32,859 nt of DNA from assembly GCA_025361885.1 (NCBI GenBank), contig JANYJF010000058.1, positions 1 through 32,859 of the forward strand. Reading direction: 5' to 3'. Made by a program: the position numbers and the translations under genes. Below, piece after piece: positions 13,897-28,143 of this stretch (its first letter is position 1; every line of letters starts with the position of its first letter). Source of the stretch: Coriobacteriia bacterium. Its GTDB lineage: Bacteria > Actinomycetota > Coriobacteriia > Anaerosomatales > PALSA-660. Under the pieces are notes generated by a model. The model saw nothing but the letters and a program-made list of their open reading frames with translations. It ran no database searches and was not told the origin of the DNA.

Positions 13897-15763
13897 CACG
13901 GGACGCACCTCCCAAGACGATGTCGAGCCCCAGGTCGCCGCACGCGTCGCAGCCCGTGCAGCCGTCGAAGCTACAGTCTCTGGTGGTCACACCGGCGACC
14001 GCGCGCTCGCGCTCGCGCAGCAAGTAGCGCTTCGAGACGCCGGATGAGATGTGGTCCCACGGCAGCGCGTCGGCCGGGTCACGTTCCGACGACGCGAGCG
14101 CCACCGGGTCGATCCCCGCGGACTCGAACGCCGCGAGCCAGCGAGGGAGCGAGAACTCCTCAGTCCAGGCATCGAAGACACAGCCGCTGCGCCATGCCTT
14201 CTCGATGACATCGGACAGCTCCCGGCCGCCACGAGCCAGCGCGCCCTCCAGGAACGAGACGTCCGGGTCGTGCCACGACAGGTCCACGCCGCGTCGGGGC
14301 ATCGCCTCGCGCAGGATCTCCTGGCGGCGGCGCACCTCCGGCAGCGTGAGCTGCGGCTCCCACTGGAACGGCGTATGGGGCTTGGGCACGAACGTCGCCA
14401 CGGACACGCCGATCTTGAGCCCGCCGCGCTGGTCCTTGGGGGTGTTCTCGCGAGCGACGTCCAAGACCTTGTGCACGAGCCGCCCGATCCCGCGTATGTC
14501 ATCGTCCGTCTCGCTGGGAAGACCGAGCATGAAGTAGAGCTTCACCCTTCGCCACCCGGCGCCGAAGGCGTGTTCTATGGTGCCGAGCAGGTCCTCCTCA
14601 GTGATGTTCTTGTTGATGACATCGCGAAGCCGCTGGGTCCCCGCCTCGGGCGCGAAGGTCAGTCCCGCCTTCTTACCGCCACCGGCCACGAGCCGCGCCA
14701 TCTCCACGCCGAACGAGTCCACGCGCAGCGACGGCAGCGACACGGAGACCGCGCGGCCCTCGAGCGAGCGCGAGAGGCGGCGCAGGACCTCCTCGATCTG
14801 CGAATGGTCGGTGGTCGACAGCGAGACGAGCGAGACCTCGTCGTGACCGGTGCAGCGCAGGGTGGCCATCACGTCGTGCACGATGTCGTCGGCACCCCGC
14901 TCGCGGACAGGGCGATAGACCATGCCGGCCTGGCAGAAGCGGCAGCCACGTGTGCAACCCCGCAGGACCTCTACCACCGCGCGGTCGTGGACCACGTCCA
15001 TGTACGGCACGACGGGGCAGGTCGGCGGACGGACGCTGCCCAGGTCCTTCAGTGCCCGCTTGGTGACCATGCGTGGCGTGGCAGCGTCCGCGGGGACCAC
15101 CGCGCCACACCCGGGCTGCGCGGAGCCGTCCGCTGACACGTAGAGCGTCGGCACGTACACACCCGGCACCCCAGAGAGCGCGCGGAGTCGATCGGCCCGC
15201 GTGCCGCCTGCCTCGATGACGGCCCTGTCGGCCTCGACGAGTTCCAGCACGGCCTCTTCGCCCTCGCCCACCAGCACCGCATCCAGGAACGACGCGATCG
15301 GCTCCGGGTTGAACGCGCACGGTCCACCCGCGATCACGAGCGGATCGTCCTCGCCCCGGTCGACGGAACGCAGCGGGATGCCCGCCAAGTCGAGCATCTC
15401 GAGCACGTTCGTATACGTCAATTCATGCGGCAGCGTCACGCCGACGAGCGCGCAGTCCCGCAGGGGCTGGAGCGTCTCGAGCGTGTGGAGCGGAACGTCG
15501 GCGGCCCGCATCGCGGCGGCCATGTCTTTCCACGGAACGAAACAGCGCTCGGCGGCCACGCCGTCGACCTCGTTCAGGATGTCGTAGAGGATGGCGACCG
15601 CTTGGTTCGCCATGCCGAGCTCATACGTGTCCGGATACACGAGGGCCACACGGTACGACGCGTCCGGGCGGACGCGGACACCCCATTCCGAGTCCAGGTA
15701 ACGGGCAGGGCGCTCCACCCCGTCGAGCAGCGGCTCGACACGCGCCCACATGTCATCGCGCAC
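13892..15763 (-). CDS. TIGR03960-family B12-binding-like/radical SAM protein
   Basis: VRDDMWARVEPLLDGVERPARYLDSEWG...VALVYPDTYELGMANQAVAILYDILN...VEVLRGCTRGCRFCQAGMVYRPVRER (CxxxCxxC) ...FDGCTGCDACGDLG C-terminal Cys motif. GTG (15761-15763) or ATG (15749-15751) start. Confidence 0.92.
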   Translation of the reverse strand: MRDDMWARVEPLLDGVERPARYLDSEWGVRVRPDASYRVALVYPDTYELGMANQAVAILYDILNEVDGVAAERCFVPWKDMAAAMRAADVPLHTLETLQPLRDCALVGVTLPHELTYTNVLEMLDLAGIPLRSVDRGEDDPLVIAGGPCAFNPEPIASFLDAVLVGEGEEAVLELVEADRAVIEAGGTRADRLRALSGVPGVYVPTLYVSADGSAQPGCGAVVPADAATPRMVTKRALKDLGSVRPPTCPVVPYMDVVHDRAVVEVLRGCTRGCRFCQAGMVYRPVRERGADDIVHDVMATLRCTGHDEVSLVSLSTTDHSQIEEVLRRLSRSLEGRAVSVSLPSLRVDSFGVEMARLVAGGGKKAGLTFAPEAGTQRLRDVINKNITEEDLLGTIEHAFGAGWRRVKLYFMLGLPSETDDDIRGIGRLVHKVLDVARENTPKDQRGGLKIGVSVATFVPKPHTPFQWEPQLTLPEVRRRQEILREAMPRRGVDLSWHDPDVSFLEGALARGGRELSDVIEKAWRSGCVFDAWTEEFSLPRWLAAFESAGIDPVALASSERDPADALPWDHISSGVSKRYLLRERERAVAGVTTRDCSFDGCTGCDACGDLGLDIVLGGASRG

Positions 15764-16773
15764 GAGGCTCGGTGCTCTCCGGTATCGCGACGTAGTGGCC
15801 CATGGCGGCCGCACGGACGTGCTCGGCCCGCTCGGCCACCAGCGCCTCACGGTGTGCGCGCTTGGCTTCCGCGCGAGCGACGCGGCTTCCCGCCAGCTCC
15901 TTGGCGCGCGAGGAGACCTTACCGGCCTCATCGCCGAGTCGGCCGAGGACGCCGGAGAGGTCCGCACCCTGCTCGAAGTAGCGGATCGCCGCCTCCCCCA
16001 TCGCCAAGGTGCCCGTGTAGCCGATCACGCCCTTGACGGCCCAGCCGAAGCCGGGAATGAAGTCGAGGAGTTGCCGGGCGACGGCCCTGAACAACAGCCC
16101 GCCGCCGACGACGGCCGTCAGCTCCTTGACGCGGTCATAGCCGAGCGGCTCACCGTATGCCGCCGCGATCTGCAACAGCATCTTGGCCTGGTTCGCGGTC
16201 ATGATCGGCATGTCGGTCCCGGGCAGGATGGTGATGGCGCCGATGGCCGCGTTCTGCCATGCGGTCGATTTCACGGCCTCTTTGGCCACAGCTCGCCGGG
16301 TGAACGCGAAGTTGTGCGCGACCGCCACGCGCTTGGCGGGAAGGCGCGCCATCATCCATTCGGCGAGCGGACCGAGCACGAGTTCCCTCGCGTCCGCGCC
16401 GGTGAGCACGTCGTCGTCCGGATGCTCGAGCAGCCGCACGATCTCACCCCGGTCGGCCCGCAGGGCCAGAACCACGGTCGGGAGCGACTTGCGGTTGAGT
16501 TCGTGCAGTGTCGGCGCAACGTCGTTCGTGCCGCTCCCGATGAGCGCCACGACCGCGTCGACGGACGAGTCGACGCGCATGACCGAGCCCGGCTCGATCG
16601 CCGCCACGTCCACGAACGCCCTGGACGTCTTGGGGCGCAGTTCCTCGCGAACGGCCTCGAGGAGCTGCTCGGGTGCGTCGATCTCCACCAGTATCGCGAT
16701 CCGGACCGGAAGGTCCCCGGCCTCGAGCATCTTCTGGCTATGGGTCCACAGTGCGCGGACGTCAACGGGCATC
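15753..16773 (-). CDS. DUF697/YcjF-like protein with N-terminal domain lacking a P-loop
   Basis: TANQAKMLLQIAAAYGEPLGYDRVKELTAVVGGGLLFRAVARQLLDFIPGFGWAVKGVIGYTGTLAMGEAAIRYFEQG resembles DUF697. N-terminus begins near MPVDVRALWTHSQKMLEAGDLPVRIAILVEIDAPEQ; start approximate. Confidence 0.7.
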
Positions 16774-16827
16774 TCCACGGCGCAGCCGCTCCTTATTCGC
16801 ATCTGGACGGACTGGGTCGCGCCTCTC

Positions 16828-17943
16828 CTACGTGCCGTACCTGCGCGACCACACGGACATCAGCATACCCACACCAGCGAGGTTCGTGATCATGAACGAG
16901 CCGCCGTAGCTCATGAACGGCAGCGGGATGCCTGTGATCGGCATCATGCCCATCGTCATGCCTGCATTCTCGAGTATCTGGAACGTCCACATGCCGATGA
17001 GTCCTGCGGCGATCAGCGCTCCGTACAGATCGCGCGAGGATGTGGCGATGGAGAGGGATGAGATGAGCAGGGCGAGATAGAACCCGAGAAGCATCACCGC
17101 GCCCAGGAAGCCCAGTTGCTCGCCGACCACGGAGAAGATGAAGTCGGTGTGCCGCTCGGGGATGAAGTTGAGCCGCGACTGCGTGGAGTTCTGCAGCCCC
17201 TTGCCCGTCAGCCCCCCGGAGCCTATCGCGATCTTGGACTGCGCGAGGTTGTAGCCGGCGCCCTTGGGGTCCCGCGTGGGGTCCACGAACACGAGCAGGC
17301 GGTCCTTCTGATACGTCTTGAGGATGGGCAGCGTGACCACAGCCGCCACCATCAGCACCGCGATGATCGCGAACACGCCGAACCACTTGGGCTTGAGCCC
17401 GCCGACGAGCAGCATCGCGAGAGCGACGACGACGAACACGAGCCCTGTACCCAAGTCCGGCTGCAGAAGGATGAGCGCCAGCGGGACCCCCGCATAGCCG
17501 GCGACGCGCAGCACGTCGCGCGGTGCCTCTATCTTGCCGTTGTATCCCGCGATGACCGCCGCGAGCACAACGATGAAGATGAGCTTCGCCGGCTCTGACG
17601 GCTGGAAGAGCGATATCGACCCGATCTTGAGCCACGACGTCGCACCCTTGGCGCTGCCGCCGAGGCCCGGGATGCGCGGCGAGATGATCAGCAGCGACAG
17701 AGCGACCATGAGCGGGCCGGCCCACCCCTTCAGCTTCTGGTAGTCGAGGAACCACAGGATGGCCAGCGGAAGCAGCCCCACGGCAAGGCCCGTGAGGTGC
17801 CGCTTGAACAGCGCGTCGGCGCCGACCATTCCGCGCGTGGCCGACCACACCATGACCGAACCATATGCGGCCAGTGCGATGGCCGACAGCAGCAGCGGCA
17901 CGTTCACGCTGTTCATGATCCGCTTGAAGATGCTCTGGTCCAC
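16828..17943 (-). CDS. rodA: Rod shape-determining SEDS protein RodA
   Basis: VDQSIFKRIMNSVNVPLLLSAIALAAYGSVMVWSAT...QPSEPAKLIFIVVLAAVIA...ILLQPDLGTGLVF...NFIPERHTDFIFSVVGEQLGFLG...ITGIPLPFMSYGGSFMITNLAGVGMLMSV. Confidence 0.96.
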   Translation of the reverse strand: MDQSIFKRIMNSVNVPLLLSAIALAAYGSVMVWSATRGMVGADALFKRHLTGLAVGLLPLAILWFLDYQKLKGWAGPLMVALSLLIISPRIPGLGGSAKGATSWLKIGSISLFQPSEPAKLIFIVVLAAVIAGYNGKIEAPRDVLRVAGYAGVPLALILLQPDLGTGLVFVVVALAMLLVGGLKPKWFGVFAIIAVLMVAAVVTLPILKTYQKDRLLVFVDPTRDPKGAGYNLAQSKIAIGSGGLTGKGLQNSTQSRLNFIPERHTDFIFSVVGEQLGFLGAVMLLGFYLALLISSLSIATSSRDLYGALIAAGLIGMWTFQILENAGMTMGMMPITGIPLPFMSYGGSFMITNLAGVGMLMSVWSRRYGT

Positions 17944-17948
17944 GTCGG

Positions 17949-19805
17949 CTACCTCGAGACGTCCACGGCGTGCACGGGCTTGTACTTGACGTTGAGCAGC
18001 TTGGACAGGATCTGCCGCGCGGCCGGGCCGGCCACCGACCCGCCATGACCGCCCTGCTCCACCAGCACGACCACCGCGTACCGAGGCTTGTCGGCGGGTG
18101 CGTAGGCCGCGAACCACGCGTAGTCGTCCTTGTTGTTGACCTGTGCGGTACCCGTCTTGCCCGCCACCTGGTAGGGGAAGCCGGCGAAGACGGCCTTCGC
18201 CGTGCCGCGCGTCGTGACGCCGACGAGCGCATCGCGCATCGTGGCCAGATTCGACGGGGTGAGGCCGGGATCGCGCGTCACCTCGGTCTTCGCGTCGAGC
18301 GCGGAGGTTCCGTCGGCACCGAGGACGGACTTGAGGAGGCGCGGCTTGGCGACCTTTCCGCCATTGCCCAGAGCCCCATAGTAGCTCGCCATCTGCAGCG
18401 GGCTCGCCAGCAAGTCGCCCTGCCCGATCGCCATGTTGACCGTGTCGCCTCCCAGCCACGCCTGGGCCTCGGGGTAGTTTGCGTTGTACGCCTTCTTCCA
18501 CGCCGCGTCGGGCACCCGGCCCGTCACCTCACCAGGGAGGTCGATGCCGGTCTTGGCGCCCAGGCCCATGGACTTCGCGAACGCCTGGAGCGGTTCGCCC
18601 TTGGCCTTGTAGAGGCGGTAGCCGATCTCGTAGAAGACACTGTCGCAGGACTGGACGACGCCCTCGCTGAAGTCAATGGCGCCGTGACCCGCATGGTTCC
18701 AGCACCACTTGGACCATGCCACGCCCATCGTGGTCCACTTTCCCTTGCACATGAACGCACTGTGGGCCTGCGCGACACCGGTCTGCAGCGCGGCCATCCC
18801 TGTGACCGCCTTGAACGTCGACGCGGGCGGATACACGGCCATGATCGCGCGGTTATTGAGCGGATACTCGCTGTCCGTGGCCGTCATGCTGGCCCAGACC
18901 TCGGGCTTGATGCCCCCGATGAACTGATTGGGGTCGTAGGTGGGCGCGCTGGCCATCGCGAGGACCTCACCAGTCTGCAGGTCGAGCACGACAGCGGCCC
19001 CTGCGCGCGCCTTCGTGAAGTTCAGATGGTGCGCCTCGGCGATCGCGTCGGCCAGCGCCTGCTCGGTGACCGCCTGCACTCCCGAGTCGATGGTGAGCAC
19101 GACGTCCTTGCCGGGGATCGCCTGCCCCTCGGATACGACGCGGCGCACGCGCCCTTGGGAATCGACCTCAAGCTGCTGAAAGCCCTTCTCGCCTTGGAGC
19201 ACCTTGTCGTACTGCGCCTCGATGCCCGTTTTGCCGACGATGTCGCCGAGCCGGTAGTCGGGCAGCTTCTCGGCGGCGAGCTGTGCCTCTGATATCTCGC
19301 CCGTATAGCCCAGCACGTGCGATGCGAGCGCCCCCATCGGGTACTGACGCACGGCGCCCTCCTTCACGGCGACGCCCGGGAACTCGGGTGCGTGCTCCGT
19401 GAGGTAGGCCACGGTGGCCATCGGCACGTCGATCGCCAGCACACGCGGCTTGAGCCGCTCGGTCTTGTAGCTCTCGAGCTTCTTGATCAGATCGCCCACG
19501 GGGACGCCCAGAACGGTGGACAGCCGTGTCAGGACCTTGGTGTCGGTGATGAGCGTGGGATCGCCGGTGACGGACATGACCGCACGGTTCGTGACGAGCG
19601 GCACGCCGTTCCTGTCGAGAATCCGACCTCGCGGCGTATCGACGGTTATCTGACGGATCCGGTTGCTATCGGACTGGGCCGCGTAGCTCGAGCCCGAGAG
19701 TATCTGCATGCTCCAGGCCCGGACCAGCAACGACCCGAGCACCAGCAGGACGACGAGTCCCAGCATGGCGAAGCGGCCTTTGAGTTGCTCGCTGAAGGTA
19801 GGCAT
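17949..19805 (-). CDS. mrdA: Penicillin-binding protein 2 (class B transpeptidase)
   Basis: TPRGRILDRNGVPLVTN..., YPPASTFK (SxxK), SCD (SxN-type), AGKTGTAQ (KTG), one N-terminal TM; adjacent to rodA. Confidence 0.95.
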   Translation of the reverse strand: MPTFSEQLKGRFAMLGLVVLLVLGSLLVRAWSMQILSGSSYAAQSDSNRIRQITVDTPRGRILDRNGVPLVTNRAVMSVTGDPTLITDTKVLTRLSTVLGVPVGDLIKKLESYKTERLKPRVLAIDVPMATVAYLTEHAPEFPGVAVKEGAVRQYPMGALASHVLGYTGEISEAQLAAEKLPDYRLGDIVGKTGIEAQYDKVLQGEKGFQQLEVDSQGRVRRVVSEGQAIPGKDVVLTIDSGVQAVTEQALADAIAEAHHLNFTKARAGAAVVLDLQTGEVLAMASAPTYDPNQFIGGIKPEVWASMTATDSEYPLNNRAIMAVYPPASTFKAVTGMAALQTGVAQAHSAFMCKGKWTTMGVAWSKWCWNHAGHGAIDFSEGVVQSCDSVFYEIGYRLYKAKGEPLQAFAKSMGLGAKTGIDLPGEVTGRVPDAAWKKAYNANYPEAQAWLGGDTVNMAIGQGDLLASPLQMASYYGALGNGGKVAKPRLLKSVLGADGTSALDAKTEVTRDPGLTPSNLATMRDALVGVTTRGTAKAVFAGFPYQVAGKTGTAQVNNKDDYAWFAAYAPADKPRYAVVVLVEQGGHGGSVAGPAARQILSKLLNVKYKPVHAVDVSR

Positions 19806-19892
19806 GGATAGCGGCTCCCGGGTCGCGCTATGGCGCCCGTCAGGTGTCTGTGGCTGGTGCGGGTGGCGCCGGGTGCGGGACTCCTCGTGACT

Positions 19893-20408
19893 CTACGCGA
19901 GGCGCTTGAACGACATCACCGAGCGGTCCTGCCGCAAGAGGCGCGCCAAGAGTGGGTACGCCAACACGGCTAGAACGGTATTGTACACGGCTCCCGGGAG
20001 CATGACGCGGACGAAGGACGTCCAGAAGGCATGCCCGACGTCGAGAACGGCGAGCAGGAGACCGTACGAGATCTCGGAGACCAGCCCGGCCATGAGAACG
20101 ACCGTGACCGGCAGCAGCCAGCCCTCGGCGAACATGTTCGCGGTCACCATGCCCGCGACGTAGCCGACCGCGCACAACACGAGCGCGTGCGGCCCGATCG
20201 GCGACGTGCCGAGCAAGTCGAACAGCAGGCCGCCCAAGAAACCCGCGACGCAACCCGCGACCGGCCCCTCGACGAGCGCGAGCGTGACGACGACCAGGAA
20301 GATGAAGTTGGGCACAACGCCGAAGATGGCGATCCGTGGGGCGATCGCGATCTGGAGTACGGTCGCGACGAGGATCGCCCCGGTCGCAGGAAGGCCTCGG
20401 CTGATCAT
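19893..20408 (-). CDS. mreD: Rod shape-determining protein MreD
   Basis: MISRGLPATGAILVATVLQIAIAPRIAIFGVVPNFIFLVVVTLALVEGPVAGCVAGFLGGLLFDLLGTSPIG; between mreC and mrdA. Confidence 0.92.
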   Translation of the reverse strand: MISRGLPATGAILVATVLQIAIAPRIAIFGVVPNFIFLVVVTLALVEGPVAGCVAGFLGGLLFDLLGTSPIGPHALVLCAVGYVAGMVTANMFAEGWLLPVTVVLMAGLVSEISYGLLLAVLDVGHAFWTSFVRVMLPGAVYNTVLAVLAYPLLARLLRQDRSVMSFKRLA

Positions 20409-21274
20409 TCGCCCGCACCTCCCGAGGTCGCCGTCGCCTGAGGCTTGAGCACCAGGACCTCCTCGATCTTGCCGATGGGCACTCTGGAATCGACGGTGAC
20501 GTGCGGGAACAGGTCGCTCGGCGCGTTGCGCACGTCGATCACGTCCCCGACCACGAGCCCCTTGGGATACACACCGCCGAGTCCGGAGGTGATGAGCACG
20601 TCGCCTTTGACCGGAGGCTGGGCCTTGTCCACGAAGTCGAGCGTCAGCGCGCCGGAAACGGAACCACGAACGACGCCCGCCGCGCGCGTGCGCTGCACGA
20701 TGACCGCGACACCGCTCGCGGCATCGGTCACGAGCCGGACCTTGGAGTCGATAGCGCTGACGTCCACCACCTGTCCGACGAGTCCTCCCGACGCGATGAC
20801 CGGTGCGCCGATCTTGACGCCGTCACGGGTTCCGCGGTCGACCAGGATCGTGCCCTCCCAGGAGTCCGTGGGCCGCCCGATGACGCGGGCGCCGACCGAG
20901 GCCAGGTTCTCCGCCTTCGCGAACTGCACGAGAGCGTGGATGCGCTCATTCTCCAAACGCGCCTCTTCGAGTTTGGCGAGGCGGTCGCGGAGTGTGGTGT
21001 TCTGCTTGACCAGCGCTGCATAGTCCCCCGCGGAGACCGTCCGTCCGCCGACCCAGTCCGCAACGACACGGAACGGCGCGGTCAGCACAGTCCCGGCGGT
21101 GGCGATGGGAGAGCTGATCGCGAGTACAACGGTGCGCGTCGCGTGCAGCGGCCCACTGGAGCCTTCGCGAAAGTACACCGTCGTCAGAACGAGAGCCGCG
21201 ACCACGAACGCGACAAGCACGAGCGGTCGGCCTGCGCCACGTTGCGTGTCGATCTCCAGGCGCTTCACGGACAC
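20405..21274 (-). CDS. mreC: Rod shape-determining protein MreC
   Basis: N-terminal TM, coiled coil LVKQNTTLRDRLAKLEEARLENERIHAL, then ARVIGRPTDSWEGTILVDRGTRDGVKIGAPVIASGGLVGQVVDVSAIDSKVRLVTD. Confidence 0.95.
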   Translation of the reverse strand: MSVKRLEIDTQRGAGRPLVLVAFVVAALVLTTVYFREGSSGPLHATRTVVLAISSPIATAGTVLTAPFRVVADWVGGRTVSAGDYAALVKQNTTLRDRLAKLEEARLENERIHALVQFAKAENLASVGARVIGRPTDSWEGTILVDRGTRDGVKIGAPVIASGGLVGQVVDVSAIDSKVRLVTDAASGVAVIVQRTRAAGVVRGSVSGALTLDFVDKAQPPVKGDVLITSGLGGVYPKGLVVGDVIDVRNAPSDLFPHVTVDSRVPIGKIEEVLVLKPQATATSGGAGE

Positions 21275-21292
21275 CCGCCTCGACGAGCCTCC

Positions 21293-22339
21293 CTAGCGGG
21301 AGACCGTCAGGACCTTCTTGAGAACGTCGATCTCCTCGAGCGCCATCGCGGAGCCGAGCACGACGTTGATGAGCGCGTTCTCCGAGACATGAACGGGCAT
21401 ACCGGTCTCGGACTTGATCCTCTCGTCGAGGCTCTTGAGCAGCGCCCCGCCGCCGGTCAGCACGATACCGTACTCCATGACATCGCTCGCCAGCTCCGGC
21501 GGCGTCTCCTCGAGGCATCCCTTGATCGCCGTGATGATCGCCTGGGTCGGCTCCTCGACAGCGGTCCTGATCTCCTCCGAGGAGATGGTCAGCGTCTTAG
21601 GCAGGCCCGTGACCAAGTCGCGGCCGCGGATCTCGACGTCCAGCTCGTCCGTGAGGGGAAACGCTGAACCGATCTCGAACTTGATCTCCTCGGCCGTGCG
21701 CTCACCGATGAGCACGTTGTACTCGCGTTTGACGTGGGCGATGATCGCGTCGTCGAACTCATCGCCGCCGATGCGTATGGACTGCGCGACCACGATGCCG
21801 CCCAGCGAGATGACGGCGACCTCGGTCGTGCCACCTCCGATGTCGACGACCATGTTGCCGGTAGGCTCCTGGATCGGCAGGCCCGCGCCGATCGCCGCGG
21901 CCATGGGCTCCTCGATGAGGTACGCGTGGCGGGCGCCCGCCTGCATGGTCGCCTCGAACACCGCGCGCTTCTCGACCTCAGTGACCCCAGAAGGCACGCA
22001 TACGACGACACGCGGCTTGGGCTGCCACGGGAATCGCTTCACGCGCGTCTTGTTGATGAAGTAGCGCAACATCGCCTCGGTGACCTCGAAGTCGGCGATG
22101 ACGCCGTCCTTGAGCGGGCGGATGGCGACGATGGAGCCGGGCGTGCGACCCAGCATGCGCTTGGCCTCGGTGCCCACTGCCAAGACGCGCTTCGTGTCCT
22201 TCTCGACCGCCACCACGGACGGTTCGATGAGCACGATGCCACGTCCGCGTACGGATACGAGCGTGTTGGCCGTTCCGAGGTCGACGGCCATGTCGCCGCC
22301 CCATGAGTCGAAGAACATGTCGATGAGCGACACGTGCAC
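21293..22339 (-). CDS. mreB: Rod shape-determining actin-like protein MreB
   Basis: [30 protein letters not shown]...[44 protein letters not shown]...[18 protein letters not shown]. Confidence 0.97.
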
Positions 22340-22500
22340 TCCTTTATGATGACGCCCGACCGGACAGGCGGGTTCTATATCGGATGTATCCTGCGCGACG
22401 TGTTCGGTGCCGCGCGTTGCTGACGCGACGAAACCCGCCCGGCTCGTGGCCGTGGCGAGGCACGGGGTTCGAAAACGCCCGAGGCAAGTCTAGCACACGG

Positions 22501-23163
22501 CTACATCGCGCCCATCTCCCTCAAGCTCACGTGCGCTCCTCCATCGCCGATCACCACGTGGTCGAGGACCTCGATGCCGAGCACGTCGCCCGCACGCACC
22601 AGCCTGCGCGTGAGCTGGAGGTCGGCGCCCGAAGGCGTGGGATCGCCGCTGGGGTGGTTGTGCACTACGATGATCGCCGCCGCGGACAGGCGCACTGCCT
22701 CCTTGAACAACTCGCGAGGATGGACGATCGACGCGTTGAGGCTTCCGACGGATACCTCCACCATCCGCAGCAGCCGGTTCTTCGTGGTCAACGCGAGCGC
22801 CCAGAAATGCTCACGATCCACCCCCCGCAGTTGCGACGCACACAGCCGCACGACATCCTCGGGCGTCGATACGCACGGCCGCTGTGACGCCGGCCAGCTT
22901 GCAGCGCGTCGGCTCATCTCCAGACAAGCCAGCAGTCGGGCGGCGCCCGCCGGCCCGACTCCGGGCACGCCCACGAGGTCCTCGGCGGACAGACGCCAGA
23001 AACCGTCAGGGATCGGGTGGCGCCGCAGGATCTCGTTGCCCGCCCGCTCGCTGCTCTCCGCGACGAGCAGCGAGAGCAGCGCCGCGTCCGACAGCGAGTC
23101 CGCACGGCCGCACAGAATGACGTCCCTTGGTGTCGCTTCCCCGGACTGCGTTCGTGGTACCAC
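22501..23163 (-). CDS. radC: RadC/JAB-domain DNA repair-like protein
   Basis: HhH motif GVPGVGPAGAARLLACLEMSRR and JAMM motif HNHPSGDPTPSGAD; GTG start within the palindrome GTGGTACCAC. Confidence 0.93.
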   Translation of the reverse strand: MVPRTQSGEATPRDVILCGRADSLSDAALLSLLVAESSERAGNEILRRHPIPDGFWRLSAEDLVGVPGVGPAGAARLLACLEMSRRAASWPASQRPCVSTPEDVVRLCASQLRGVDREHFWALALTTKNRLLRMVEVSVGSLNASIVHPRELFKEAVRLSAAAIIVVHNHPSGDPTPSGADLQLTRRLVRAGDVLGIEVLDHVVIGDGGAHVSLREMGAM

Positions 23164-23259
23164 GCGGATCCCCCCTCGGTCGTATGGATGGCAGTGCGAG
23201 GGGTGGCGGAGAAGGGAGATTTCTTCGGGCGATAGCGGCGCGAGCCGCTCGGTCGTGCG

Positions 23260-23595
23260 TCAGCCGGGGTCGCGAGTGTGCGGGTGGTCGGTCGGGCCTG
23301 GCCTTGGGGGCGCGAGGCCTTGCACACGGGTGACGGCTGCGGCCACGGCGCTCCCGCCGGTTCTGCACGCACCCGCTGGAAGCGCGCCGCTCACGATCCC
23401 GACCGCTGTGGCCAAGCACGAGCGATTGCCGCAAACGCCGCAATCTGCGCCCGGCAGAGCGGAGAGCACCGCTTGGAGCCTCGGGTCGGGCGTGTGGCTG
23501 ATGCGCCGACCGCGCGACGACACCGCAAGACCGGCGGTCGCCGCGCCGAGCAATGCGATCAGCCCGGCAGCCATGAGCATCACCGGCACGTCCAT
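23260..23595 (-). CDS. Membrane-anchored single [4Fe-4S] protein resembling the RnfB N-terminus
   Basis: MDVPVMLMAAGLIALLGAATAGLAVSS (TM) then LPGADCGVCGNRSCLATAVGIVSGALPAGACRTGG, matching the RnfB-type FeS motif C-x2-C-x4-C-xn-C and trailing GG. ATG preceded by an AGGGGGG Shine-Dalgarno-like run. Confidence 0.75.
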   Translation of the reverse strand: MDVPVMLMAAGLIALLGAATAGLAVSSRGRRISHTPDPRLQAVLSALPGADCGVCGNRSCLATAVGIVSGALPAGACRTGGSAVAAAVTRVQGLAPPRPGPTDHPHTRDPG

Positions 23596-23728
23596 ATCGC
23601 ACCCCCCTTGCGTCGCCCTCCACGAGCGCCTCGGCGGCGCCCCGGTCTGCCGTCAGTGTGCCACACGCACCCGTCCGATTCCCATCCGCCCTCGAACCAA
23701 CGCCTGACGGACGGGTCGCGCGCCCTCG

Positions 23729-25015
23729 TCAGTGTACTGAGCAGGACAGACACGGGTCGTATGAGCGCACAAGTTGTTCTATCAGCAGCTCGAACTCCTT
23801 CGGTGAGCGGTCCGCCACGGTCGGAGCGAACGCCCGCATGTCCGCCTCGAGGTTCGCGAGGTTCTGGGCAGTGGGCGTGATCACATCGCCGGAGGTGATG
23901 ATGCCGTTCGCGTCGATCCCGTACGAATGGTAGAGGGTGCCGCGCGGCGCCTCGGTAGCCCCGGCTCCCCAGCACTCCCGACCCAGCTCCACAGTCGCGG
24001 GCTTCGACGATCCGCCCATGTCGATGACGCGCTCGATGTAGCCGGCGCAGTGCTCGGCGGCGTCGACGAGTTCGACCGCCTGGCACAGGTTCATGTGGAA
24101 GGGATTGCGCGACGGAAGCACCAGACCGAGCCTGGCCAGAGCGGCCTTCGCGTTGGGGACGAGACGGTCGCCTGAGAGGTTGATGCGTGGCAGGGCGCCG
24201 ACCATGAAGGTGCGCCCGTCGGCCGTGGTCCGGCTGTGCTTGGCGTTGCCGTGTCCCTCGCCCGCCGACGTCTCGACGATCACGTCGCGGTACTCGGCGA
24301 CCGGTCTGCGCCACCCGCGGTCGAGAGACTCGATGTCGCCGCCGTAGATCGCGTAGTCGTCGCTCTCCACGAGCGCGAGCATGTCGCCGGCGGACGCGAA
24401 GTCCGGCAGTGCGAACGACGCGAACAGGTCGACGGTGGCAAGCACATCGTTCGCGACCTCGAGCAACTGATCGTGGATGGAGGCCAGGTCCAGCGCCTTC
24501 GGCTCCGAGGTGAAGCCGCCCACGACCGCGGTCACCGGGTGCACGGGCCGCCCCCCGACCAGCGCGGTCAGCCGGTTGCCCAGCGACTTGATCTTGAGCG
24601 CGCGCTCGACCACTTCTGGATGCGTCGCGGCGAGCGGGAAGACGCTGTCGAGCCCCACGAAGTCGGGGGCGGCGAGCACGTAGAGGTGCGTCGCATGGTT
24701 CTGGAGGAACGAGCCGTAGACGAGGAGCTTTCGTAGCATGGTCGTACGCTCAGTGACTTCGACACCCAGCGCGGCCTCGACCGCCTTGATCGACGTCAAT
24801 GCGTGGTTCGGCGAGCAGATGCCGCAGATGCGCGAAGTGATCAGCGGCGCGTCGTCGTATCGGCGTCCCACGACCATGGCCTCGAAGAACCGCGCGGGCT
24901 CCACCACATCCATGCGGACCTCGAGCACGCGACCCTCCTCGACCTTGACCGCGATGTTGCCGTGGCCCTCGATGCGGGCGATGTGTTCGATCGCAAGTTC
25001 GGCCACTAGCGGCAC
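23729..25015 (-). CDS. hydA: Group 3b-type [NiFe] hydrogenase large (alpha) subunit
   Basis: L1 motif SRICGICSPNHALTS, L2 motif DPCLSCSVH at the extreme C-terminus; adjacent hydD, hydG, hydB. Confidence 0.93.
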   Translation of the reverse strand: MPLVAELAIEHIARIEGHGNIAVKVEEGRVLEVRMDVVEPARFFEAMVVGRRYDDAPLITSRICGICSPNHALTSIKAVEAALGVEVTERTTMLRKLLVYGSFLQNHATHLYVLAAPDFVGLDSVFPLAATHPEVVERALKIKSLGNRLTALVGGRPVHPVTAVVGGFTSEPKALDLASIHDQLLEVANDVLATVDLFASFALPDFASAGDMLALVESDDYAIYGGDIESLDRGWRRPVAEYRDVIVETSAGEGHGNAKHSRTTADGRTFMVGALPRINLSGDRLVPNAKAALARLGLVLPSRNPFHMNLCQAVELVDAAEHCAGYIERVIDMGGSSKPATVELGRECWGAGATEAPRGTLYHSYGIDANGIITSGDVITPTAQNLANLEADMRAFAPTVADRSPKEFELLIEQLVRSYDPCLSCSVH

Positions 25016-25755
25016 ACCTCCCGGTCGGTGTTGTACAGGTCGAGTGCGGTGACGACCTCATCGAAGTCGTGCCCGAATGCGGCGTACACCTTCCGCGCGG
25101 CCTCCAGGTTCGCATCCGGTGCCAAGCCGCGGCAGCCGGTGCATGGCCGCCCGAGCGTCGTGCACTTCGCGTCGCACCCGCTTCGCGTGATGATCCCGAG
25201 GCACAGATCGCCGCGCCTCATGAAGCACTCGTTGCCGTGAGTCTTGCACGAGGCGCACAGCGGCTGCTCGGGCATGCCGTTCGACAGCCCCTTGAGAGCT
25301 CGTCCGAGCACCGCGAGGAACTCCGTGGTGTCGATCGGGCAGCCCGGGACGATATAGTCCACGTCGATATAGCGACTGATAGCCACGGGCGAGTGCAGAC
25401 CTGGCGTCACCGTCGCATCCTCGCCGTAGACCGCGGCGAAGCGGCAGTCCGCGTCGATGGTGCCCGCCAGCGCCGGAATGCCTCCGGTCACCGCGCACGA
25501 CCCGATCGCCACTACCACGCTCGCGGTCTCGCGAACGCGGCGTAGCAGCTCGATGTGCTCGTCGGTGGTGACCGCACCTTCGATCACCGCGACGTCATAT
25601 TCCTCGGGCATGTGTCCCGAGGACGTCAACTGCCAGTAGCGCAGGTCGATCAGCCCCAGGACCTGCAGCAGCCCCGGGTCGATGTTGGTGATCTGGACCT
25701 GACATCCGAAATCGGAGGCCAGGCTGATGATGGCAACGCTCGGCGCGTCGGCCAC
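25006..25755 (-). CDS. hydD: [NiFe] hydrogenase small (delta) subunit
   Basis: ISLASDFGCQVQ...EGAVTTDEHIELLRRVRETASVVVAIGSCAVTGGIPAL...VPGCPIDTTEFL...CASCKTHGNECFMRRGDLCLGIITRSGCDAKCTTLGRPCTGCRG. Confidence 0.92.
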   Translation of the reverse strand: MADAPSVAIISLASDFGCQVQITNIDPGLLQVLGLIDLRYWQLTSSGHMPEEYDVAVIEGAVTTDEHIELLRRVRETASVVVAIGSCAVTGGIPALAGTIDADCRFAAVYGEDATVTPGLHSPVAISRYIDVDYIVPGCPIDTTEFLAVLGRALKGLSNGMPEQPLCASCKTHGNECFMRRGDLCLGIITRSGCDAKCTTLGRPCTGCRGLAPDANLEAARKVYAAFGHDFDEVVTALDLYNTDREVCR

Positions 25756-26621
25756 TATATCGCCTCCTGCAGGTTCATCGCTTCCCAGTAGTTGAAGACC
25801 GGTCCGTCAACGCACGCGTACTGATGGCCGACGCCACAGTGCCCGCACTTGCCCACACCGCACTTCATCCTTCGCTCGAAGCTCACATAGATCCGGTCGG
25901 CGTCGATGCTCTTCTTGCGCATCTCGGCGATGACGTACTTGTACATGACCGGCGGCCCGCAGATGGCGCCGTACGTGTTCGATGGATCCACGTCGATCCG
26001 GTCGAACAGCTTGGTCACAAGCCCTACCTCGCCCGTCCACGTCTCGTCCGCCTGGTCGACCGTCAGGACCATGTCGAAGTCGTCGCGGTGCTGCCACATC
26101 TCGAACTGGCGGCGGAACAGGATCTCGGACGGCGTCCGCGACCCGTACAGGATCGTCACATTGCCAAAAGCGTGCCGCTCGTCGTGGATGTGGTTGATGA
26201 GGCTCTTGAGTGGAGCGATCCCGAGCCCGCCAGCCACAAGCAGCACGTCGGAGCCCTTCATCTGCTCGAAGGGGAAGCCCCGGCCGAACGGCCCGCGGAT
26301 CCCGATGATGTCGCCGCATCGCATGTCGTGGAGCGCACCCGTGACGTCGCCCGCGCGGCGGACACACAACTCGATGAAGCCCTGCTTCGACGGCGCCGAT
26401 GAGATCGAGATCGGCGCCTCCCCCACACCAAAGATGGAGACTTCGACGAACTGGCCCGCCGAATGCGAGAACTCCGCGCGGCTCTCCTCGTCGATGAGGC
26501 GGAGCTCGAAGAGCTTCTCGTTGTCGGTCAGGTCGACGATCGAGGTGATGCGTGCGCGATGGGGCCGATACGGGTTGACCGTCTCGACCTCCGGATGGAC
26601 GTGCCCGTCGATGCCGATCAC
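25755..26621 (-). CDS. hydG: Hydrogenase gamma subunit (FAD/NAD(P)-binding, [2Fe-2S])
   Basis: AGQFVEVSIFGVGEAPISISSAP...VLLVAGGLGIAPLKSLINHI...YGAICGPPVMYKYVIAEM...CGVGKCGHCGVGHQYACVDGPVF. GTG start overlaps the hydB stop at 26618-26621. Confidence 0.93.
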   Translation of the reverse strand: MIGIDGHVHPEVETVNPYRPHRARITSIVDLTDNEKLFELRLIDEESRAEFSHSAGQFVEVSIFGVGEAPISISSAPSKQGFIELCVRRAGDVTGALHDMRCGDIIGIRGPFGRGFPFEQMKGSDVLLVAGGLGIAPLKSLINHIHDERHAFGNVTILYGSRTPSEILFRRQFEMWQHRDDFDMVLTVDQADETWTGEVGLVTKLFDRIDVDPSNTYGAICGPPVMYKYVIAEMRKKSIDADRIYVSFERRMKCGVGKCGHCGVGHQYACVDGPVFNYWEAMNLQEAI

Positions 26622-27658
26622 TCGGCAGCCACCTCCTCGCGGCTCATGGCGCCTTGCAGGGCCGCGATGACCTCGGGCGGATTGATGCCCGCCAGGCACG
26701 CGCGCGTGCACCGGCCGCAGCCGACGCACAGCACCCGCTCGAACTTGCTCAGGTAGCCCCATTGCTTGTGGTAGTAGCGGTACTTCACCCTGCTCGAGCG
26801 ACTCTCGCGGAAGTTGGCGCCGTGCGCCACCGCCGCGAAGTCGCGGAACATGCACGAGTCCCACACACGCACCCGCTCGCCGCCGGCATGATCGGGATCG
26901 AGCACGTCCTTCACATCGAAGCAGTAGCACGTCGGGCAGACCATCGAGCACGCGCCGCACGACAGGCACCGCTCGCCGAGCTCGTCCCACACGGGGCTGT
27001 CGAACTTGGCGTCGAGCAACAGTGGGAGTTGCGAGGTGTCGAGCGGCTCCGGGAACGACGCCTTGAAGCGCGCGGTCACCTCTTGGAACCGCCGGGTGTC
27101 CTGGTGGGTGATCTCGCGGGACTCCACATGCCGGTCGATGAGTTCCGCGCCCTTGACCGAGCGCACCGACACGAAGTAGTCGGGCCCGAGATCGGACAGG
27201 AAGATGTCGAAGCCCCAGTGCGTCTCGTCGGTGCCCCATGCGTTACAGAAGCATGTGTCCGACGGCTGGCAGTTCACGCCCACGATCAGCGTGTTCTCGC
27301 GGCGCGCCTTGTAGTACGGGTCCGGGCGGTCGCCCAGGAAGACGTTGTCCATCAGCTGCAAGCCGTTGACGTCGCACGGGTGCACGCCGAACAGCACGCG
27401 CGGCGGCGCATCGACCTCGCAGTCCACGACCTCGTTGTCCGCCGTCGCGAAGCGCATGATGCGCTCGCGCGGCGGCATGAACCACTCCTTGGGTGGAAGC
27501 AGGGTCGAGTCGAAGTCCAAGCGAAGATCGCCCGGCCCCTCGAGTTCCGCGTAGACGAACGAATCGCCTTTGGCCACAGGTCCGACGACCTCGAACTCCG
27601 CGGCTAGGCCGCGGACGAGATCGGGCAGACGGTCCTTGTCGATCATCCGGAAGAACAC
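26618..27658 (-). CDS. hydB: Hydrogenase beta subunit (4Fe-4S, sulfhydrogenase beta-like)
   Basis: VLFGVHPCDVNGLQLMDNVFLGDRPDPYY..., CLSCGACSMVCPTCYCFDV and CVGCGRCTRACLAGINPPEVI ferredoxin motifs. Confidence 0.92.
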   Translation of the reverse strand: MFFRMIDKDRLPDLVRGLAAEFEVVGPVAKGDSFVYAELEGPGDLRLDFDSTLLPPKEWFMPPRERIMRFATADNEVVDCEVDAPPRVLFGVHPCDVNGLQLMDNVFLGDRPDPYYKARRENTLIVGVNCQPSDTCFCNAWGTDETHWGFDIFLSDLGPDYFVSVRSVKGAELIDRHVESREITHQDTRRFQEVTARFKASFPEPLDTSQLPLLLDAKFDSPVWDELGERCLSCGACSMVCPTCYCFDVKDVLDPDHAGGERVRVWDSCMFRDFAAVAHGANFRESRSSRVKYRYYHKQWGYLSKFERVLCVGCGRCTRACLAGINPPEVIAALQGAMSREEVAAE

Positions 27659-27738: not shown

Positions 27739-28143
27739 CTACTTGCCGAAGAAGATGCCGATCTCGCGCTCCGCGCTTTCAGCGGAGTCTGAGCCGTGGA
27801 TGATGTTCGCGTCCAAGATCAGACCGAAGTCGCCGCGGATCGTACCGGGAGCCGCATCCTTCGGGTTGGTCGCGCCGATGAGCTTGCGGCATACAGACAC
27901 CGCATCGGGGCCGGAGATGACCATGCGCACGACCGGGCCGGACGTCACGTAGTCCACCAACCCCTCGTAGAACGGCTTGCCCTCGTGCTCAGCGTAGTTC
28001 GCCGCGGCCTGCTCGCGGGTGAGTTGCGCCATCTCGAGCCTGTCGATCACAAGGCCCGCATCCTCGAACCGGCTCACGATGCGGCCGGTGATACGGCGGG
28101 AGACTGCGTCGGGCTTGATCATCACGTAGGTGCGTTGATCCAT
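27739..28143 (-). CDS. ndk: Nucleoside diphosphate kinase
   Basis: MDQRTYVMIKPDAVSRRITGRIVSRFEDAGL...MVISGPDAVSVCRKLIGATNPKDAAPGTIRGDFG...IIHGSDSAESAEREIGIFF (catalytic His in NIIHGSDS). Confidence 0.97.
   Translation of the reverse strand: MDQRTYVMIKPDAVSRRITGRIVSRFEDAGLVIDRLEMAQLTREQAAANYAEHEGKPFYEGLVDYVTSGPVVRMVISGPDAVSVCRKLIGATNPKDAAPGTIRGDFGLILDANIIHGSDSAESAEREIGIFFGK

Follow-up and report, generated by a model that had tools for sequence, protein, structure and literature searches.

The large subunits of [NiFe] hydrogenases are usually cut after the final histidine of their C-terminal motif. Of the proteins with solved structures, the closest to the enzyme considered here are the alpha subunits of sulfhydrogenase 1 (SHI) of Pyrococcus furiosus and HyhL of Thermococcus kodakarensis, which belong to group 3b. 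In HyhL the C-terminal tail displaces the N-terminus, which brings HypA to the site (PMC7294309, PMC12134894). Large subunits without a tail have been published for groups 2b, 2d, 4c, 4e, and 4g, and group 3b is absent from those lists (PMC7294309, PMC12134894); we found no report in the open-licence literature describing a 3b enzyme as tail-less. The naturally tail-less regulatory hydrogenase of R. eutropha is supplied by the Hyp machinery with the standard cofactor, and R. eutropha HoxG minus its tail (HoxG-proc) is fully active at lower abundance; E. coli Hyd-2 and the R. eutropha SH are nickel-free once their tails have been removed genetically, and some enzymes thus do suffer from losing the tail (PMC7294309). 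The same paper calls for tests on further large subunits of whether they tolerate the lack of a tail (PMC7294309).

We analyzed a 32,859-nucleotide contig (JANYJF010000058.1, hereafter the window) of a Coriobacteriia draft genome, in which hydA is the last gene of a four-gene operon, hydB-hydG-hydD-hydA, lying between two syntenic markers:

22501..23163, reverse strand: radC, downstream syntenic marker (PF04002, synteny)
23729..25015, reverse strand: hydA, 428 aa from a GTG start, the large (alpha) subunit of a group 3b [NiFe] hydrogenase (PF00374)
23729..23758, reverse strand: the motif DPCLSCSVH and the TGA stop, the cleavage-site histidine being the last encoded residue
25006..25755, reverse strand: hydD, small (delta) subunit, 249 aa (PF01058), overlapping the hydA start by 10 nt
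25755..26618 (frame, not start codon), reverse strand: hydG, FAD/NAD(P)-binding gamma subunit (PF00970, PF00175, PF10418; HydG/ShyC)
26618..27658, reverse strand: hydB, 4Fe-4S dicluster beta subunit, 346 aa (PF17179; HydB/ShyB)
27739..28143, reverse strand: ndk, upstream syntenic marker of the Coriobacteriia hydBGDA locus (PF00334, synteny)

All four subunits of a group 3b enzyme are present (catalytic large, small, FAD/NAD(P)-binding, and 4Fe-4S dicluster), and HydA is nearer to SHI and HyhL than to groups 1, 3a, 3c, or 3d: the P. furiosus SHI alpha subunit matches it with an E-value of 7e-74, and the ranking of PDB entries is headed by 9e15, 9nez, and 5yxy, followed by Mvh-type, F420-type, and NAD-type enzymes. 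The best NCBIfam matches of HydD are sulfhydrogenase HydD/ShyD, yet under the curated cut-offs, and those of HydA are HydA/ShyA, well under theirs. An earlier sequence-only reading of this DNA had assigned the enzyme to group 3b; the subunit make-up and the homology to the Pyrococcus (SHI) and Thermococcus (HyhL) enzymes uphold this and support a [NiFe] hydrogenase of group 3b that is coupled to NAD(P), with NAD(P) specificity and H2 activity as predictions. Between hydA and radC (window positions 23260-23595, reverse strand) there is also a protein of 111 aa that carries a PF04060 Fe-S motif and whose homologues in relatives lie directly before radC or several kb downstream.

The HydA open reading frame, read on the minus strand, ends in ...EQLVRSYDPCLSCSVH and is followed by TGA at 23731..23729; no residue follows the final motif histidine, exactly as the sequence-only reading had claimed, and all four active-site cysteines are present. 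We consider it very likely that this protein is made at its mature length and loaded with cofactor by the Hyp proteins with no proteolytic step, its receipt of cofactor and its activity being predicted from the gene content. The hyp set is complete in this genome (hypF-C-D-E on contig C51, hypA-B on C39; HypE was recognized by its AIRS domains and C-terminal PRIC). Two iterated HMMs and a motif scan found no HycI/HybD-like ORF in the window, and no protease gene was found in the hydA-radC interval. The earlier statement that there is no protease gene therefore holds for the window and fails for the genome (a draft of 70 contigs, 91.6% complete), which has a single HycI-type protease gene on another contig (C35:18473-18853), identified by PF01750 and by a custom profile that we made from 12 diverse rows because PF01750 misses a divergent type of protease. 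A second protease was not found in this 91.6% complete genome with the 12-row profile, so that HydA has no dedicated maturation protease there, an absence that at this completeness is not absolute.

Some 2.6 kb separate the C35 protease gene from a group 1 large subunit, which is probably, judging from its sequence, a selenocysteine-containing [NiFeSe] hydrogenase that should require cleavage. This large subunit (L002, G000:C35:21414-22877) reads DP-TGA-LGCGVH followed by VFEPKTGKKSFVMSKPMGR, a 19-residue tail, with the TGA at 1519-1521 on the minus strand; a single in-frame TGA was also observed in most group 1 matches of the order. In three other genomes (G023, G301, and G302) every protease is near another hydrogenase gene. 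The Raymondbacteria MAG G303 has a tail-less 3b gene as its only [NiFe] large subunit above the Pfam cut-off, and neither PF01750 nor the custom profile found a protease in that MAG. A missing protease can also mean an incomplete genome, since G080 and G034 have tailed [NiFeSe] enzymes, yet no protease by the custom profile. A class Coriobacteriia free of such proteases was considered and rejected: almost all near-complete genomes that encode a tail-less 3b enzyme also encode one or more of them, because most of these genomes carry group 1 hydrogenases as well.

The retention of one HycI in the window's genome, and of at least one in nearly all near-complete Coriobacteriia genomes with tail-less 3b enzymes, would also be expected if the HycI-type protein helped HydA to mature without cutting it, for example as a nickel-sensing chaperone; we regard this as very unlikely, since the HycI gene adjoins, and is explained by, the tailed [NiFeSe] hydrogenase, and since G303 has a tail-less 3b enzyme with no detectable protease. 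Maturation independent of a protease, which the sequence-only reading had predicted for HydA, gains comparative support as a prediction: there is nothing to cleave, the only protease of the genome lies beside a tailed [NiFeSe] enzyme, no protease could be detected in G303 alongside its tail-less 3b enzyme, and an adjacent protease is frequent at tailed 3b loci and absent from tail-less ones (see below).

The same terminal histidine is the end of all 74 distinct Coriobacteriia orthologues that we compared, which come from MAGs and isolates across the class (Anaerosomatales-like genomes, Adlercreutzia, Enterorhabdus, Parvibacter, and others). The motif is DPC[L/M]SC in 68 of them (ending in TAG in 40, TAA in 17, and TGA in 11), DPCFSC in three, and DLCLSC in three, all tail-less; the DLCLSC form, in place of the near-universal DPCxxC, was seen at L066/L104, L086, and L103. 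The sequence-only reading had named a shared ending of all close homologues as something that would refute it; that ending is indeed shared, which goes partly against the reading by making the trait one of a subclade. The suggestion that the ending was special to this genome did not stand; the tail-less end is clade-wide. In some close relatives the setting TPR gene, ndk, hydBGDA, (FeS gene), radC, mreB is complete, and in Eggerthellaceae it is partial. This conserved setting argues for vertical inheritance within the class, and by the evidence of the neighbourhood the tail-less state is old in Coriobacteriia.

Such conservation also bears on whether the tail-less enzyme could be a poorly matured or non-functional relic that is merely tolerated, as the nickel-free products of engineered tail removal in two other hydrogenases (PMC7294309) might suggest. 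The operon is intact with all four active-site cysteines, and it has been conserved over deep branches of the class with its synteny kept; together these imply long-standing selection, and make a relic very unlikely indeed. That a sequencing error or a frameshift created the stop and cut off a normal tail, for which the 70-contig draft state of the genome could be cited, is ruled out by the 74 distinct orthologues, in which TAG, TAA, or TGA occupies this very codon position, and the in-frame readthrough past the hydA stop contains nothing resembling a YLDVEFVR-type tail. Recoding of the TGA (as selenocysteine or by readthrough) into a longer, tailed protein, in a genome whose [NiFeSe] hydrogenase (DPULGCGVH) does seem to contain a recoded TGA, is ruled out for the clade by TAG or TAA at the stop position in 62 of the 74 orthologues, and the sequence 3′ of the stop is not conserved among them; we give either of these two accounts practically no credence.

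Outside the Coriobacteriia clade, 3b homologues mostly extend 5-21 residues past the histidine (most commonly 7 or 8), and tails of 1-4 residues were not found among those compared. Six exceptions have exactly no tail: Fibrobacteres L046, Aminicenantes L057, Raymondbacteria L067, G023 (L138), and Coriobacteriia G245 and G246 (L185 and L186). In the tree, the Coriobacteriia clade (tail-less in 55 of 55 rows) is separated from other 3b sequences by a strongly supported split, and at least 4-5 changes of tail state are required, the direction of which is not given by the tree alone. On these sequences, the tail-less state is found in several separate 3b lineages. We identified 15 clade-specific HydA positions (e.g., S102, N106, A108, T109, D318, C323, and V427), none of which recurs as a compensating substitution in the independently tail-less lineages. 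At HydA residues 102-109 (window 24689-24712), the clade has S-x-x-x-N-H-A-T-H versus an otherwise conserved E-x-x-x-S-H-x-L-H, and S102, N106, A108, and T109 are each at least 95% conserved in the tail-less clade.

A second 3b lineage, about 40% identical to the tail-less clade, exists in the same order. Of the 16 members compared, fifteen have an 8-residue YLDVEFVR-like tail, and in the same fifteen a HycI-type protease ORF (checked with Pfam) follows directly downstream in the same orientation. The remaining member, G023, ends at the histidine and has no adjacent hycI, and its operon (L184, L181; G023:C8, about 15500-27500) occupies the ndk-radC locus that normally holds the operon of the tail-less clade; the simplest account, from this arrangement, would be that the resident operon was replaced and that tail and protease were lost together. 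Among 3b loci with at least 500 bases of downstream sequence, an adjacent HycI is found at 23 of 45 tailed loci and at none of 53 tail-less loci (Fisher p = 2.8e-10, relatedness ignored). When relatedness is counted there are only 4-5 independent contrasts and the association of tail and protease is not significant (p = 0.125-0.5); the protease follows the tail in about three of these contrasts and goes in the opposite direction in none. As sole evidence adjacency is weak, since roughly one in two tailed 3b loci has no adjacent protease either. Beyond group 3b, we observed that group 3c-like large subunits with tails of about 25 residues have a convergent ORF about 250 nt downstream that encodes a divergent HycI/HybD-like protease (at L165, 2359-2799, reverse strand, with similar ORFs by most of L163-L174); PF01750 misses it, and the best PDB match of the L165 protein is 5ttx, a hydrogenase 2 maturation peptidase (E = 3.5e-4).

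In the maturation route that we propose, HydA would be translated at mature length with the histidine as its encoded C-terminus, HypA-F would load the Ni-Fe(CN)2CO cofactor into the tail-less apo-subunit, the last cysteine would close the active site with no proteolysis involved, and assembly with HydD and the remaining subunits would follow cofactor loading. The N-terminus of HydA would presumably reach HypA without a tail, and subunit assembly may reject empty large subunits, so that proofreading could rest on the N-terminus or the small subunit, as has been proposed for other tail-less hydrogenases. It is quite possible, though we would stop short of calling it probable, that the proteolytic nickel checkpoint is dispensable in group 3b and has been lost several times, once (in G023) through an operon replacement at the same locus in which tail and protease were shed together; tail-less 3b enzymes may then use a generic checkpoint at the N-terminus or small subunit, not specific compensating mutations, a possibility raised by the lack of any residue change common to the independent losses.

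Tail-less large subunits as such are known, and it is the clade-wide lack of the tail in group 3b that appears to be undescribed; the useful part is, on the loci compared here, that within 3b the lack of the tail goes with the lack of an adjacent protease. T. kodakarensis HyhL, the source of the structural model in which the tail keeps the site open to HypA, is itself a 3b enzyme. The tail-less 3b clade and its tailed relatives in the same order offer matched pairs for testing this model, while relatives that lack the tail and the neighbouring protease gene together are natural test cases for the purpose of the tail. Heterologous production of 3b enzymes could also become simpler, as a cognate protease would not be needed.

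Compared with described systems, the window's operon has the four-subunit make-up of P. furiosus SHI (HydA, PDB 9e15/9nez) and T. kodakarensis HyhL (PDB 5yxy/5yy0), whose large subunits align with its HydA across 420 residues (E about 1e-71 to 1e-74), the SHI motif DPCISCSVH lining up with the last motif of HydA. The PDB chains 9nez_D and 5yxy_A have 428 residues and can be aligned only as far as residue 424, consistent with a tail of four residues in those proteins, versus none in the Coriobacteriia clade. For the cultured Anaerosoma tenue M08DHB, of the order Anaerosomatales, PMC9686372 describes a 3b operon classified by HydDB (MCK8114995-8), with a make-up like that of the window's, together with HypABCDEF and, apart from the 3b operon, a group 1i hydrogenase that has a maturation protease of its own. 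In having no C-terminal extension, HydA resembles the large subunits of groups 2b and 2d (H2-sensing), 4c (CO dehydrogenase-associated), 4e (Ech), and 4g (PMC7294309; for 2b, 2d, 4c, and 4e also PMC12134894); those known tail-less groups are sensory or membrane energy-converting, whereas the window's enzyme is predicted to be a cytosolic NAD(P)-coupled hydrogenase of group 3b.
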